Shown here in pieces: positions 6,634 to 26,342 of a DNA stretch of 64,000 nt; the stretch's first letter is position 1; each line of letters opens with the position of its first letter. Position numbers and translations under genes: made by a program. Source of the stretch: a virus; IMG/VR virus record IMGVR_UViG_3300009506_000019, positions 1 to 64,000 of that record. The stretch is one strand, 5' to 3'. The notes beneath the pieces were generated by a model. The model was not told where the DNA came from. It worked only from the letters and a program-made list of their open reading frames with translations, and ran no database searches.

Positions 6634-6649
6634 CGGCACGTGTCCTGCA
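6634..6649 (+). promoter_or_regulatory. sigma-54-like promoter P3
   Basis: CGGCACGTGTCCTGCA with GG at 6635-6636 and GC at 6647-6648, ten bases apart. It lies 14 bases after a stop codon and 53 bases before the ATG at 6703. The initial transcribed region (TATCTTTTGTGTG) matches the other copies. Confidence 0.7.
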
Positions 6650-9367: not shown

Positions 9368-9799
9368 ATGACGATTAGCTCGTTCGATGGGGAATACCAA
9401 TTCCTCAGCAACTTCTTTCCAGTAACTGTATTCCTGGATGGCGAGTGCTACCCATCGGTTGAGCACGCATATCAGGCAGCAAAAACCACCAACCCATACG
9501 AACGTCAATTCATCAAAGATATGAAAACACCCGGCAGAGCCAAACGTGCTGGTCGTCACCTCATGCTACGTGAAGATTGGGAGCTGATAAAAATCAGCGT
9601 CATGCACGACTTATTGCGCCAAAAATTCAGCCACGAAACGCTGCGCAAACGACTACTGGCCACAGGAGATGAAAAGCTGGAAGAAGGCAACACCTGGAAG
9701 GATTACTTCTGGGGTGTTTGCAACGGAATCGGACAAAACCAGCTTGGCGTGTTGTTGATGCGCGTGCGAGAGGAAATAAGGCACTGTGAGAAAACCTGA
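9368..9799 (+). CDS. NADAR-family protein
   Basis: A 143-residue protein covering the complete NADAR (YbiA/DUF1768) fold: FDGEYQFLSNFFP at 6-18, YPSVEHAYQAAK at 28-39, a TPGRAKRAGR segment, DWELIKISVMHDLLRQKF, and TGDEKLEEGNTWKDYFWG near the C-terminus. All are hallmarks of the family. NADAR proteins act on ADP-ribose-linked bases and can remove ADP-ribose from guanine in DNA; orphan phage members have been reported to counter DarT-type DNA ADP-ribosylating toxins. An anti-defence role here is inference. ATG 9368 follows GAAGGTGAAGTAGATAACG. Confidence 0.85.
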   Translation: MTISSFDGEYQFLSNFFPVTVFLDGECYPSVEHAYQAAKTTNPYERQFIKDMKTPGRAKRAGRHLMLREDWELIKISVMHDLLRQKFSHETLRKRLLATGDEKLEEGNTWKDYFWGVCNGIGQNQLGVLLMRVREEIRHCEKT

Positions 9800-10841: not shown

Positions 10842-10857
10842 TGGCACGGCGTCTGCA
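10842..10857 (+). promoter_or_regulatory. sigma-54-like promoter P5
   Basis: TGGCACGGCGTCTGCA, a full match to TGGCACG-N4-nTGCA, with GG at 10843-10844 and GC at 10855-10856. It is followed by CATTCTTTGGGGGTGTG. It lies directly after a gene end and 67 bases before the start at 10925; the operon is closed by a strong terminator. Confidence 0.75.
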
Positions 10858-10924
10858 TTCTTTGGGGGTGTGTGGGCGTCGTGCCCGTTAATTCGTAACC
10901 CAATCTCACGAGGAGATGACAACC

Positions 10925-11464
10925 ATGGCAAAGATCAAGATCAGTGCGCTGGCAGACAGGCTCAGCATGGACCCGAAGGCCGTCATCGCCAAGCTGGCAG
11001 AAGCTGGCATCCAGGCGAAACGACGCGACAGCTCAGTCGATGAGACCGCCGCTCTCGCGGCTCTCGGAACGGCACCCGCTTCAGCTCCGGCCGAGCAGGG
11101 AGCGGAGGTGGTGAGCCTGGACCAGGCACGCGAAAAGAAGGCATCGAAACCGAAGAAGGAAAAGACGCCGAAAAAGCCGAAGTCCGACAGCGACGATTGG
11201 TACAAGAAGTACCCGTGGGTCGTGAAGGGCAGCGTGCGCGAGCCGACCTCAGCCGACCGCAAGGCTCTGGGCTCGCGATGTCACGGCAAGGTGTGCACCG
11301 TCCGATGCGTGGACAGCGGAGTGGAGCGCGTGGTCAACACGCAGGACGCTTTTCAGTCCAAACGCTGCCCGGACGCGCAAAAGGCGTACATGCGTCGCCG
11401 ACGTGCCGAGCGCCGTCAGGCCCGCAAGGATGCCAAGGCAGCCAAGAAAGCCAATCACAGCTAG
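10925..11464 (+). CDS. basic protein with IF2-N-like domain; paralogue of 21581-21937
   Basis: A 179-residue, very basic protein in its own promoter-terminator unit. Residues 1-28 (KIKISALADRLSMDPKAVIA) resemble the small N-terminal helical domain of translation factor IF2. A Lys/Pro-rich linker follows at about 65-90. The C-terminal part (YKKYPWVVKGSVRE, CHGKVCTVRCVDSG, NTQDAF) is clearly the same domain as in the gene at 21581, with a basic Arg/Ala-rich tail. The domain has no name I know. Ribosome or nucleic-acid binding is inference. ATG 10925 follows ACGAGGAGATGACAACC. Confidence 0.75.
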   Translation: MAKIKISALADRLSMDPKAVIAKLAEAGIQAKRRDSSVDETAALAALGTAPASAPAEQGAEVVSLDQAREKKASKPKKEKTPKKPKSDSDDWYKKYPWVVKGSVREPTSADRKALGSRCHGKVCTVRCVDSGVERVVNTQDAFQSKRCPDAQKAYMRRRRAERRQARKDAKAAKKANHS

Positions 11465-13521: not shown

Positions 13522-13854
13522 GTGAAAACAGTGCTATTCGTAGACGATGAAGTTCCAATCCTGTATGCCATCAAACGCAACATGAAGGTCCATAGGGATC
13601 AAATCCGATGCCTGTTCACTTGTGACGTGGACACTGCCATCTATCTTGTTGATCAAGTTGACATGGTAGTAACCGACTGGACAATGCCGGGTGGCAGTGG
13701 ACGAGACGTAGTGGATAAGTGCAAACAGATGAACGTGCCAGTCATCGTGAGTAGTGGCGATGACCTCACCATCGATGTGCCGCACATAAAAAAGCCATGC
13801 ATAGCGCAGATTCCAGACGCTGTGGCACGTGCTCTGCATCTCTTGGATCTATAG
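13522..13854 (+). CDS. stand-alone response-regulator receiver domain (CheY-like)
   Basis: A 110-residue protein that is a complete receiver domain and nothing else. Strand 1 VLFVDDE with acidic Asp8/Asp9, phosphoacceptor Asp52 in VVTDWTMPGGSG, the switch Ser in VIVSSGD (77-78) and the conserved Lys in HIKKP (90-91) are all present. It is short for the family because the last helix is trimmed. It has no output domain, so it would work by protein contact or as a phosphate sink for host histidine kinases. GTG 13522 start. Receiver proteins are rare in phages. Confidence 0.85.
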   Translation: MKTVLFVDDEVPILYAIKRNMKVHRDQIRCLFTCDVDTAIYLVDQVDMVVTDWTMPGGSGRDVVDKCKQMNVPVIVSSGDDLTIDVPHIKKPCIAQIPDAVARALHLLDL

Positions 13855-13864
13855 GAGGAGTACC

Positions 13865-14362
13865 ATGGCGCACAACAAGAAGTGGGACAACGACAGCAAG
13901 CTGTCCGACTGGTTTGAGAAGCAACTAAACGAGCTGGACGAATGGGGCGGAGAAGGCTCATCCATCGACGCTATCGGCAACTGTGTGAGCGACGACCACA
14001 TGTTCTCGTACTGTTACGAGGGCCTGGGTAAGGAAATAGACACCAACGACTACATCAACGCGGCTATCGATTTTGGCATGGATGTGAAAGACAACAAAAT
14101 CTTTCACTTCTACTTCCGAAGCGTCAACTTCTACTTCCTGGCTCGTAACAAGACCGAATTCAAGCACATGATCCTTGCGGCCATCAAAGAGTGGAAGGAC
14201 GGCTGCGAGCCCATCGAGAGGGAAGAGCCACAGCCGCCACGTGATGAGGTGATGGAGTCTCTCCTCAAAGACATCTACTCACACGTGAGAGATCCGAAGG
14301 GACGAAACGACATCGAAACCAATTGGTGCGAACGTATTGAGGCACTTGGACTAGGCAAATGA
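13865..14362 (+). CDS. unknown acidic protein
   Basis: A 165-residue protein from ATG 13865 after GGAGGAGTACC. Acidic and aromatic-rich in the centre (IFHFYFRSVNFYFLA), with Pro-rich turn near residue 120 and a C-terminal helix. Follows the receiver gene by ten bases. Not recognised. Confidence 0.65.
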   Translation: MAHNKKWDNDSKLSDWFEKQLNELDEWGGEGSSIDAIGNCVSDDHMFSYCYEGLGKEIDTNDYINAAIDFGMDVKDNKIFHFYFRSVNFYFLARNKTEFKHMILAAIKEWKDGCEPIEREEPQPPRDEVMESLLKDIYSHVRDPKGRNDIETNWCERIEALGLGK

Positions 14363-16469: not shown

Positions 16470-16485
16470 TGGCACGTGTCCTGCA
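16470..16485 (+). promoter_or_regulatory. sigma-54-like promoter P6
   Basis: TGGCACGTGTCCTGCA, GG at 16471-16472 and GC at 16483-16484. It is followed by the shared CATTCTTTTGGTG run. The start codon of the next gene is only 28 bases downstream with AGGAGG in between, leaving a very short leader. Confidence 0.75.
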
Positions 16486-18190: not shown

Positions 18191-18683
18191 GCTGAATGTA
18201 AACCTCACCAGTTGACTGCACATGTTGCATTATGCTGTCAAAAGAGGGAGGTTTAGCAGCTTTCTTCGGTTTCTTGTCAAACTCTTTTTCTTCGCCAGAG
18301 TCTGACTCGTCGAGTGGTGCGGGGACAGCCAGCGCAGCTGGTACTCTCCCACCACTTCGACGCACTCCTCTCAAATACCCCTTCAATTCAGCTATCTCCA
18401 GCTTCAGAGCAATTACTTCATCAGAATAAGATTTGATGTTACCGCTCATCTCTTCCACGGTAGAAGCCAGATTCTCATAAGAACTTCGCTGAACCAGTGC
18501 CGCAGTGCTTCTTTCTCTATAATCCAGATAGGTATTTACCAAAACACCAGGAACAGCAGTTAATGCAGCAATAAGAGCTGCTACTCCCGCCCAATTGATT
18601 GGCTTCTTCTTTGGCTCTTCACACTCATCACAATCTTCGTCAGAATCATGAGTGTGAACATGAGTTGTGCGATGTGGGGTCAT
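18180..18683 (-). CDS. single-pass membrane protein with coiled coil
   Basis: A 167-residue protein. The N-terminus has a His-rich stretch and CDEC; one membrane segment lies at about 30-51 (WAGVAALIAALTAVPGVLVN), followed by a coiled-coil-like region to about residue 105 and a charged Lys/Pro tail. The N-in membrane segment plus periplasmic coiled coil recalls an inner-membrane spanin, but no lysis gene is beside it, so this is only a possibility. Last gene of a four-gene - strand island. Confidence 0.6.
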   Translation of the reverse strand: MTPHRTTHVHTHDSDEDCDECEEPKKKPINWAGVAALIAALTAVPGVLVNTYLDYRERSTAALVQRSSYENLASTVEEMSGNIKSYSDEVIALKLEIAELKGYLRGVRRSGGRVPAALAVPAPLDESDSGEEKEFDKKPKKAAKPPSFDSIMQHVQSTGEVYIQPKE

Positions 18684-19081
18684 GGTCCGAATTTCTTGGT
18701 CCTAGCAGACAGATTTACAATAACAGCCTGCCTACGCATGTTTTGTTGACGAATTAGCGCCATCTCGAGCTGCTCAACTGTAAGCTGAGTATGTCTTACT
18801 AGGTACTCACCCAGCATTTCCCCTTTCGACATCTTGAATTCTTTTACCATTCTCTCCAAATCGTTATAGTTAATAAAACCCATTTGAATTAGAATATTAC
18901 CAATACTGGATGGATCATCCTCTGGACGCACACCATTAACTCCTGGAGTTAATGACTGTCGCTGCTCAAGTTCCACAGACAGTTGCTCAGCTGCTGATAT
19001 GAATTCCTTACTCATGGTTGTGATTTTATCTAGCATCATCTTGATGGAATTAGTCTGGTCCAACTCACACTTAGGGTTAGC
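18680..19081 (-). CDS. GspE-N/MshEN-like domain protein
   Basis: A 133-residue protein. I start at the internal ATG (19081), which overlaps the upstream stop and has GGGGAAG before it. The C-terminal half (IGNILIQMGFINYNDLERMV, then MLGEYLVRHTQLTVEQLEMA) has the double 'G..L...G.I....L' repeat typical of the N-terminal domain of type II secretion/pilus ATPases (MshEN), which in some cases binds cyclic di-GMP. There is no ATPase. Whether it binds a nucleotide is unknown. Confidence 0.55.
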   Translation of the reverse strand, partial: ANPKCELDQTNSIKMMLDKITTMSKEFISAAEQLSVELEQRQSLTPGVNGVRPEDDPSSIGNILIQMGFINYNDLERMVKEFKMSKGEMLGEYLVRHTQLTVEQLEMALIRQQNMRRQAVIVNLSARTKKFGP

Positions 19082-19514
19082 CATTTTCTTCCCCATCATC
19101 TTCGACATCAACAACTTGTAACTTGCTTCGCATCTCTTCCATCATATTTTTTATACTAGCAATCGATCTGTAAGCGTCAATAGTTCGCCTACGATCACGT
19201 CTATCCGTCAGGTTCTGAGCCATCAGGATAAGAGGAGATGCAAAAGCTGCTTGAAAGGACAAAACTAGATTAAGCAGGATAAATGGGTATGGATCCCATC
19301 CGGTCACCAGCATTACTGCATTAGCTGCTACCCAGAACGACAGGATAACAGACTGAAGGATAATAAATCTCCAACTACCAATAAACCCAACTACTTTGGT
19401 AGCCACCTTCTCACCAACAGTAGCATCGAGACCATCACCGTAACGAAGATTCTCAATCTCCTCCAGGATGTTCTTTTGTGTCTCAATGATGGTTTTCAGA
19501 TCGGAGTTCGTCAT
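19077..19514 (-). CDS. DUF1003 membrane protein
   Basis: A 145-residue protein from ATG 19514. It matches DUF1003 well: GSWRFIILQ at 46-54, WVAANAVML, WDPYPFILLNLVLSFQAA at 73-90, SPLILMAQNLTDRRDRRR at 93-110. Two membrane segments lie at about 48-70 and 77-99. Bacterial members are inner-membrane proteins of unknown function. The N-terminal 40 residues are helical and acidic. A hairpin at 19570-19586 separates it from the large gene upstream. Confidence 0.75.
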   Translation of the reverse strand: MTNSDLKTIIETQKNILEEIENLRYGDGLDATVGEKVATKVVGFIGSWRFIILQSVILSFWVAANAVMLVTGWDPYPFILLNLVLSFQAAFASPLILMAQNLTDRRDRRRTIDAYRSIASIKNMMEEMRSKLQVVDVEDDGEENG

Positions 19515-22004: not shown

Positions 22005-22020
22005 TGGCACGTGCCCTGCA
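22005..22020 (+). promoter_or_regulatory. sigma-54-like promoter P9
   Basis: TGGCACGTGCCCTGCA, GG at 22006-22007 and GC at 22018-22019. With flanks it is nearly identical to P11 over about 26 bases (ending TTTTATGATCGT). The next start is 45 bases downstream. Confidence 0.75.
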
Positions 22021-26326: not shown

Positions 26327-26342
26327 TGGCACGTGCCCTGCA
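26327..26342 (+). promoter_or_regulatory. sigma-54-like promoter P11
   Basis: TGGCACGTGCCCTGCA, GG at 26328-26329 and GC at 26340-26341, almost a duplicate of P9 including the following bases. The VWA gene starts 30 bases downstream. Confidence 0.75.

Follow-up and report, generated by a model that had tools for sequence, protein, structure and literature searches.

Genomic setting of the receiver gene

The stretch of DNA analyzed here (hereafter the window, 64,000 nucleotides) covers positions 1-64000 of a virus record that is 166,061 bases long. Scanning phage proteins along the window returned matches to a tail sheath, a baseplate wedge, and a head maturation protease, together with a DnaE-type polymerase, a primase-helicase, a UvsX-like recombinase, an NAD-dependent ligase, and a ribonucleotide reductase. 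Because sheath, baseplate, head, replication, and ribonucleotide reductase proteins all lie in the window, we assign the record to a large contractile-tailed phage. No phage DNA closely similar to the record was present in the annotated collection. Among the 54 aligned window proteins, matches to bpMoxR, VWA, Trigger_N (trigger factor N-terminal), and a LysW-like Zn ribbon form an unusual mix for a phage. A NADAR-domain protein (E 6e-24) is encoded at 9368-9799 on the plus strand, and the NADAR family has been proposed to act in counter-defense against ADP-ribose signals.

The gene studied here has a GTG start and encodes a protein of 110 amino acids (Table 1). Its start is preceded by a good Shine-Dalgarno (SD) sequence (gaggtgg-taac-GTG), and the gene is tightly packed, beginning 1 nt after the upstream gene and ending 10 nt before the next ATG, with both neighbors on the same strand. 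Pattern and tblastn scans of IMG/VR detected no sister phage carrying the gene, and the phage records contained no close relative of the protein, only a 35% partial match. A search with a neighboring gene likewise found no sister phages, while a search with the primase recovered a single syntenic contig, only 7.9 kb long, which does not extend to the receiver region. A DNA pattern for D-W-T-M-P-G-G matched only two unrelated proteins.

Table 1. Features of the receiver gene and RpoN-like elements in the window.
Feature	Position	Strand	Basis or remark
Stand-alone receiver (REC) protein, 110 aa, GTG start, without output domain	13522..13854	+	PF00072, subfamily profile, AF2, Foldseek
Asp8-Asp9 codons, acidic metal-binding pair	13543..13548	+	Invariant in alignments with bacterial receivers
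alpha1-beta2, residues 10-33, kinase-docking helix	13549..13620	+	Part most similar to Desulfuromonadia RR:HD-GYP receivers
Asp52 codon, predicted phospho-acceptor, in TDWTMPG	13675..13677	+	Invariant in alignments
Ser78 codon, conserved Ser/Thr position	13753..13755	+	Thr or Ser at this position in relatives
Linker beta4-beta5 (residues 79-90), shorter by about 10 residues and with His88 at K-3	13756..13791	+	D-K spacing, model
Lys91-Pro92 codons	13792..13797	+	KP motif, equivalent to TKP in relatives
RpoN-like element TGGCACGGCGTCTGCA	10842..10857	+	Upstream of the plus-strand gene run containing the receiver
RpoN-like -24/-12 element TGGCACGTGCTCTGCA, in last codons of receiver gene	13823..13838	+	Suitably positioned for the gene starting at 13865
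RpoN-like element TGGCACGTGTCCTGCA, same family	16470..16485	+	Motif scan
RpoN-like element TGGCACGTGCCCTGCA, same family	22005..22020	+	Motif scan
RpoN-like element TGGCACGTGCCCTGCA, same family	26327..26342	+	Motif scan

Identity, fold, and phospho-acceptor site

The Pfam model PF00072 (Response_reg) matched the protein with an E-value of 6.9e-7 and 29.9 bits over residues 4-81 only, which is 0.3 bit under the curated cut-off of 30.2 bits; the match remains beyond chance after multiplication of the E-value by about 200 genes, and this open reading frame is the sole PF00072 match in the 166-kb record. A subfamily profile built from the six nearest relatives scored the protein at 51.8 bits over residues 1-91, and a sequence search of the PDB also returned receivers. 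The AlphaFold (AF2) model adopts a receiver fold with a mean pLDDT of 82. Foldseek retrieved 107 solved structures at E<=1e-3, and nearly all among the matches listed were receivers, with CckA-Rec (6tne) as the second-best match. Coordinates, SD sequence, PF00072, subfamily profile, PDB matches, and fold matches all agree with the initial annotation of a stand-alone receiver at this position. On the basis of sequence and model together, the open reading frame is confidently predicted to encode a response-regulator receiver. A stop codon follows the 110 amino acids, which bears out the claim that an output domain is absent.

In alignments with bacterial receivers, the catalytic quintet (DD, D, T/S, and K) is complete, being formed by D8, D9, D52, S78, and K91. 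The acidic pair, the phospho-acceptor, and the serine (now fixed as S78) had been recognized correctly at the outset, whereas the conserved lysine had been placed at Lys90. It is K91, because this residue precedes the conserved proline both in the alignment with CheY-type receivers and in the KP motif.

Loss of helix alpha4 and of the output face

The protein departs from typical receivers in its C-terminal half. The spacing from Asp52 to Lys91 is 39 residues, compared with 49-59 in 87 bacterial receivers from the loci compared. The model contains no helix between residues 70 and 94, residues 80-89 are of low confidence, and beta5 is doubtful and poorly formed. As a control, the closest bacterial relative first found (L010) was folded with the same five sequences, and its model contains alpha4 at 83-94 and beta5 at 100-103; the loss of alpha4 in the phage receiver is therefore not an artifact of a thin alignment. 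Residue spacing and model thus indicate that helix alpha4 is deleted in the phage receiver, a feature that the initial annotation had missed. Its loss explains why the PF00072 match ends at residue 81. We also considered a frameshift concealing alpha4 and rejected it, since the KP motif stays in frame and a simple in-frame shortening suffices.

With alpha4 absent and beta5 doubtful, the protein does not have a complete (beta-alpha)5 fold. Receivers without alpha4 are on record (PMC9981736), and the absence of this helix therefore marks a receiver variant rather than a non-member of the family. The residue three before the conserved lysine (K-3) is usually Tyr or Phe and acts in Y-T coupling (PMC12632262). 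In the phage receiver this position is occupied by His88, so that, with alpha4 also lost, both usual parts of the output switch are missing and the CheY-type switch face alpha4-beta5-alpha5 with Y-T coupling is not formed.

These features bear on the suggestion that the protein is CheY-like, since a CheY-like output is disfavored by the absence of alpha4 and of the coupling Tyr/Phe. In the effector form of this idea, the phosphorylated protein would bind a host target, such as a motor or a protease adaptor, through its alpha4-beta5-alpha5 face. A stand-alone receiver with a complete phospho-site would suit such a role, and CheY and CpdR are Rec-only effectors (PMC9981736). However, the very face that would carry the interaction has lost alpha4, has a poorly formed beta5, and bears a histidine at K-3, and we consider a CheY-like effector improbable.

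Relationship to HD-GYP receivers and possible origin

The search of bacterial genomes pointed to one type of receiver. Matches at E<=1e-6 occurred in 18 of the 146 genomes of the class to which the Geobacter MAG belongs (top score, 45.8 bits), and most of the top matches there belonged to a single response regulator:HD-GYP (RR:HD-GYP) family; the 150 genomes of a Planctomycetota class gave 33.8 bits at most. In one genome with 150 receivers, only the HD-GYP receiver passed an E-value of 1e-6. The best sequence matches, reaching 45.8 bits and 40%, were RR:HD-GYP receivers of Geobacter-type Desulfuromonadia (e.g., L010, 5001-5978, and L025, 1501-2457), which share with the phage protein the TVLFVDDE and R-D-x-(I/V)-R-C-L-F stretches as well as the phospho-site. 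In the RR:HD-GYP proteins, alpha4 and beta5 are present and an HD-GYP domain follows at the C terminus, whereas the phage protein has neither alpha4 nor HD-GYP, and its beta5 is doubtful.

The likeness is distributed unevenly along the protein. Residues 10-33 matched 67% of the HD-GYP receiver columns, compared with 37% on average and at most 59% among 64 other receivers, an excess that is somewhat inflated because the family used in this segment test had itself been picked as the best match. Residues 34-72 were near background, and the C-terminal part from beta4 to alpha5 matched 25% of the columns, compared with a mean of 45% in the 64 other receivers. In a maximum-likelihood tree, the phage receiver fell outside the HD-GYP clade on a branch of length 2.2, for which the program warns of long-branch joining. 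Sequence searches and the phylogeny that had been proposed for finding the bacterial donor thus gave a divided answer: the best matches are RR:HD-GYP receivers, but the tree places the protein outside their clade and picks no donor. A Desulfuromonadia RR:HD-GYP receiver as donor is, on sequence likeness, a lead rather than a result.

Two alternatives draw on this divergence. First, the receiver fold may serve as a scaffold for a phosphorylation-independent binder that makes no use of Asp52 and either blocks its host target (a kinase, a response regulator, or another protein) or redirects it. Such a role would fit the strong divergence outside beta1-alpha1-beta2, the long branch, and the PF00072 score just below the cut-off, and there are pseudo-receivers whose action does not depend on phosphorylation (PMC12632262). 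However, all five catalytic positions and the proline after Lys91 have been kept despite the divergence elsewhere, and we regard this alternative as unlikely, although it deserves more weight than the other alternatives considered here. Second, the gene could be a decaying or neutral passenger from a bacterium. Its divergent C-terminal half, its deletion, and the failure to find a related phage carrying it would be expected of a passenger, whereas the intact frame, SD sequence, tight packing, and retained phospho-site would not. Its GC3 of 0.54 is also only a little below those of eight other window genes (0.57-0.76) and close to the lowest of them, and a passenger gene is thus very unlikely.

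Elsewhere in the window, a 144-aa phage protein encoded at 18680-19114 on the minus strand has a sub-threshold match to an MshE-related cyclic-di-GMP-binding motif (32.5 bits against a cut-off of 38), which is of interest beside a receiver resembling those of cyclic-di-GMP phosphodiesterases.

RpoN-like promoter elements

The motif YGGCACG-N4-(C/A)TGCA was found at seven sites between 6.6 and 26.4 kb, starting at 6634, 10842, 13823, 16470, 22005, 23666, and 26327, all on the plus strand. Conservation among the seven elements covers the -24 and -12 blocks, and the spacer is variable. The published sigma54 consensus is mrNrYTGGCACG-N4-TTGCWNNw, with GG at -24 and GC at -12 (PMC2725144); the phage elements fit both this and the Geobacter sulfurreducens consensus, with C or A replacing the first T of the -12 block. 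A one-mismatch scan with the sigma54 core gave 12 sites, compared with 2.87 expected in shuffles. When the start site is predicted about 12 nt past the GC of the element, it falls 17-58 nt before an SD-preceded start codon in each of the seven cases; for the element that overlaps the 3' end of the receiver gene, which the initial annotation had not noted, it lies 17 nt before the ATG at 13865. The promoter core TGGCACGTGCCCTGCATT had no exact match in other viral contigs, and the open part of the literature yielded nothing direct on sigma54 promoters in phages. Among tailed phages, such a set of RpoN-like promoters confined to one strand would be unusual. The first gene after one such element encodes a 182-aa protein (10916-11464, plus strand) whose N-terminal part matches IF2_N, the N-terminal domain of translation initiation factor IF-2 (E 1.7e-7).

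The RpoN-type promoters that had been noted beside the receiver thus proved to be a real repeated motif. Profile searches of the phage record detected no RpoN domain and no Sigma54_activat domain, so that, if these elements are sigma54 promoters, a host activator would be needed. Their link to the receiver is one of proximity only, because the closest receivers belong to HD-GYP phosphodiesterases and not to RpoN activators.

The seven one-strand elements and the lack of a phage activator would suit a relay in which a host RpoN activator receives phosphate from the receiver, or is switched on by it in another way, and so fires the phage promoters; RpoN is also essential in Geobacter sulfurreducens (PMC2725144). 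However, the nearest receivers are not NtrC-like, and receiver-to-receiver transfer needs a histidine intermediate. The position of the receiver gene inside the gene run of one putative promoter, with another element overlapping its 3' end, is expected from dense packing. We therefore see little likelihood in an RpoN relay.

Proposed role as a phosphoryl sink or decoy

Our tentatively preferred reading, to which we give somewhat less than an even chance, is that the protein is a phospho-acceptor without CheY-type output that drains or competes for a host kinase. It follows from the retention of the acidic pocket, the phospho-acceptor, and alpha1 alongside the loss of the output helix. Receivers engage DHp, the histidine-bearing domain of the partner kinase, through their alpha1 surface (PMC9981736). 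The phage receiver may have been pared to its phospho-accepting and kinase-docking core; its alpha1 would dock on a host sensor kinase or histidine phosphotransferase, and Asp52 would take the phosphoryl group from this partner. Being unable to pass on an allosteric output, the protein would then act as a phosphoryl sink or a competitive decoy, formally equivalent to a passive intermediate of the Spo0F/CckA-Rec type, and one host two-component pathway would be muted or re-routed during infection.

A profile search of the entire 166-kb phage record found no HATPase_c domain of a histidine kinase, and any phosphate must therefore be supplied by the host or by small donors. The initial proposal of phosphate diversion or a Spo0F-like relay fits this anatomy, namely a full phospho-site, a retained docking half, and no phage kinase domain.

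Our best guess for the partner is a pathway ending in a response regulator of the HD-GYP (cyclic-di-GMP phosphodiesterase) type. The related RR:HD-GYP gene of the Geobacter MAG is immediately preceded by a histidine kinase gene, and owing to this adjacency we regard this type of kinase as the first candidate partner. In a more elaborate and improbable version, the protein would be a purpose-built decoy made from a host RR:HD-GYP receiver by removal of alpha4 and output; it would capture the phosphate of a specific host kinase and shift cyclic-di-GMP or RpoN-activator signaling such that the phage RpoN-type promoters fire.

Phage-encoded receivers have mostly been catalogued as auxiliary genes without a mechanism. 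The retention of the docking half and phospho-site together with the loss of the output helix leads to a clear prediction, phosphate capture without signaling. If this is true, a sink or decoy receiver would represent a phage strategy against two-component signaling.

Comparison with known receivers

Searches of the open part of the literature returned nothing direct on phage-encoded response regulators. Two Alteromonas phages provide precedents for a phage-encoded single receiver with no known output domain and a retained phospho-acceptor region: CDS-30 of vB_AmeM_PT11-V22 (149 aa), entered as a CheY-like class II AMG (PMC7289586), and vB_AmaS-R9Y1_12 (150 aa). The V22 protein is a Foldseek match of our receiver in BFVD, and several predicted structures of uncultured phages also match as stand-alone receivers. 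The "phage" records matching a generic receiver consensus mostly resemble bacterial contigs, and these were left out as precedent. Both Alteromonas receivers are full-length, with a beta4-alpha4-beta5 region of normal length and a C terminus longer by about 30 residues, whereas the receiver described here is shortened. They are located near tail-fiber genes and are not close to our protein in sequence; PHROG 731 matches them across the entire domain.

The cRec domains of jumbo phages, tied to NAD/ADPr-processing enzymes (PMC7824862), offer another comparison, being divergent receivers in large phages that, as here, also have NADAR. For divergent phage receivers of this kind, a role in cyclic-phosphate processing within NAD/ADP-ribose systems has been proposed, and the NADAR gene of our phage lies 4 kb upstream of the receiver. 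However, about ten genes separate the two, and the receiver keeps the classical DDE, D-x-x-MP, and KP motifs. The cRec model PF20274 (cREC_REC) matched neither the receiver nor anything else in the record at E<=1, which largely refutes a cRec identity and leaves it with hardly any probability.

Among bacterial proteins, CckA-Rec (6tne), Sma0114, and SdrG have no ordered alpha4 and, as a phosphorelay intermediate (CckA-Rec) or as Rec-only proteins (Sma0114 and SdrG), have been judged passive in phosphotransfer (PMC9981736). They resemble the phage receiver in the lack of an ordered alpha4 and in their intact phospho-site. The analogy is partial, because the alpha4 segment or linker of CckA is present but unfolded, whereas in the phage receiver the linker is shorter and alpha4 is deleted. 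The three proteins also carry a FATGUY-type motif (FxSGY in CckA; PMC9981736). This motif, of the MrrA, SdrG, and Sma0114 type, is absent from the phage receiver, which has V-S-S-G-D at residues 76-80 with only S-G in common. Stand-alone phage receivers and alpha4-less bacterial receivers were thus already known, and the shortened, output-less phage form described here is an unusual form of this known type.
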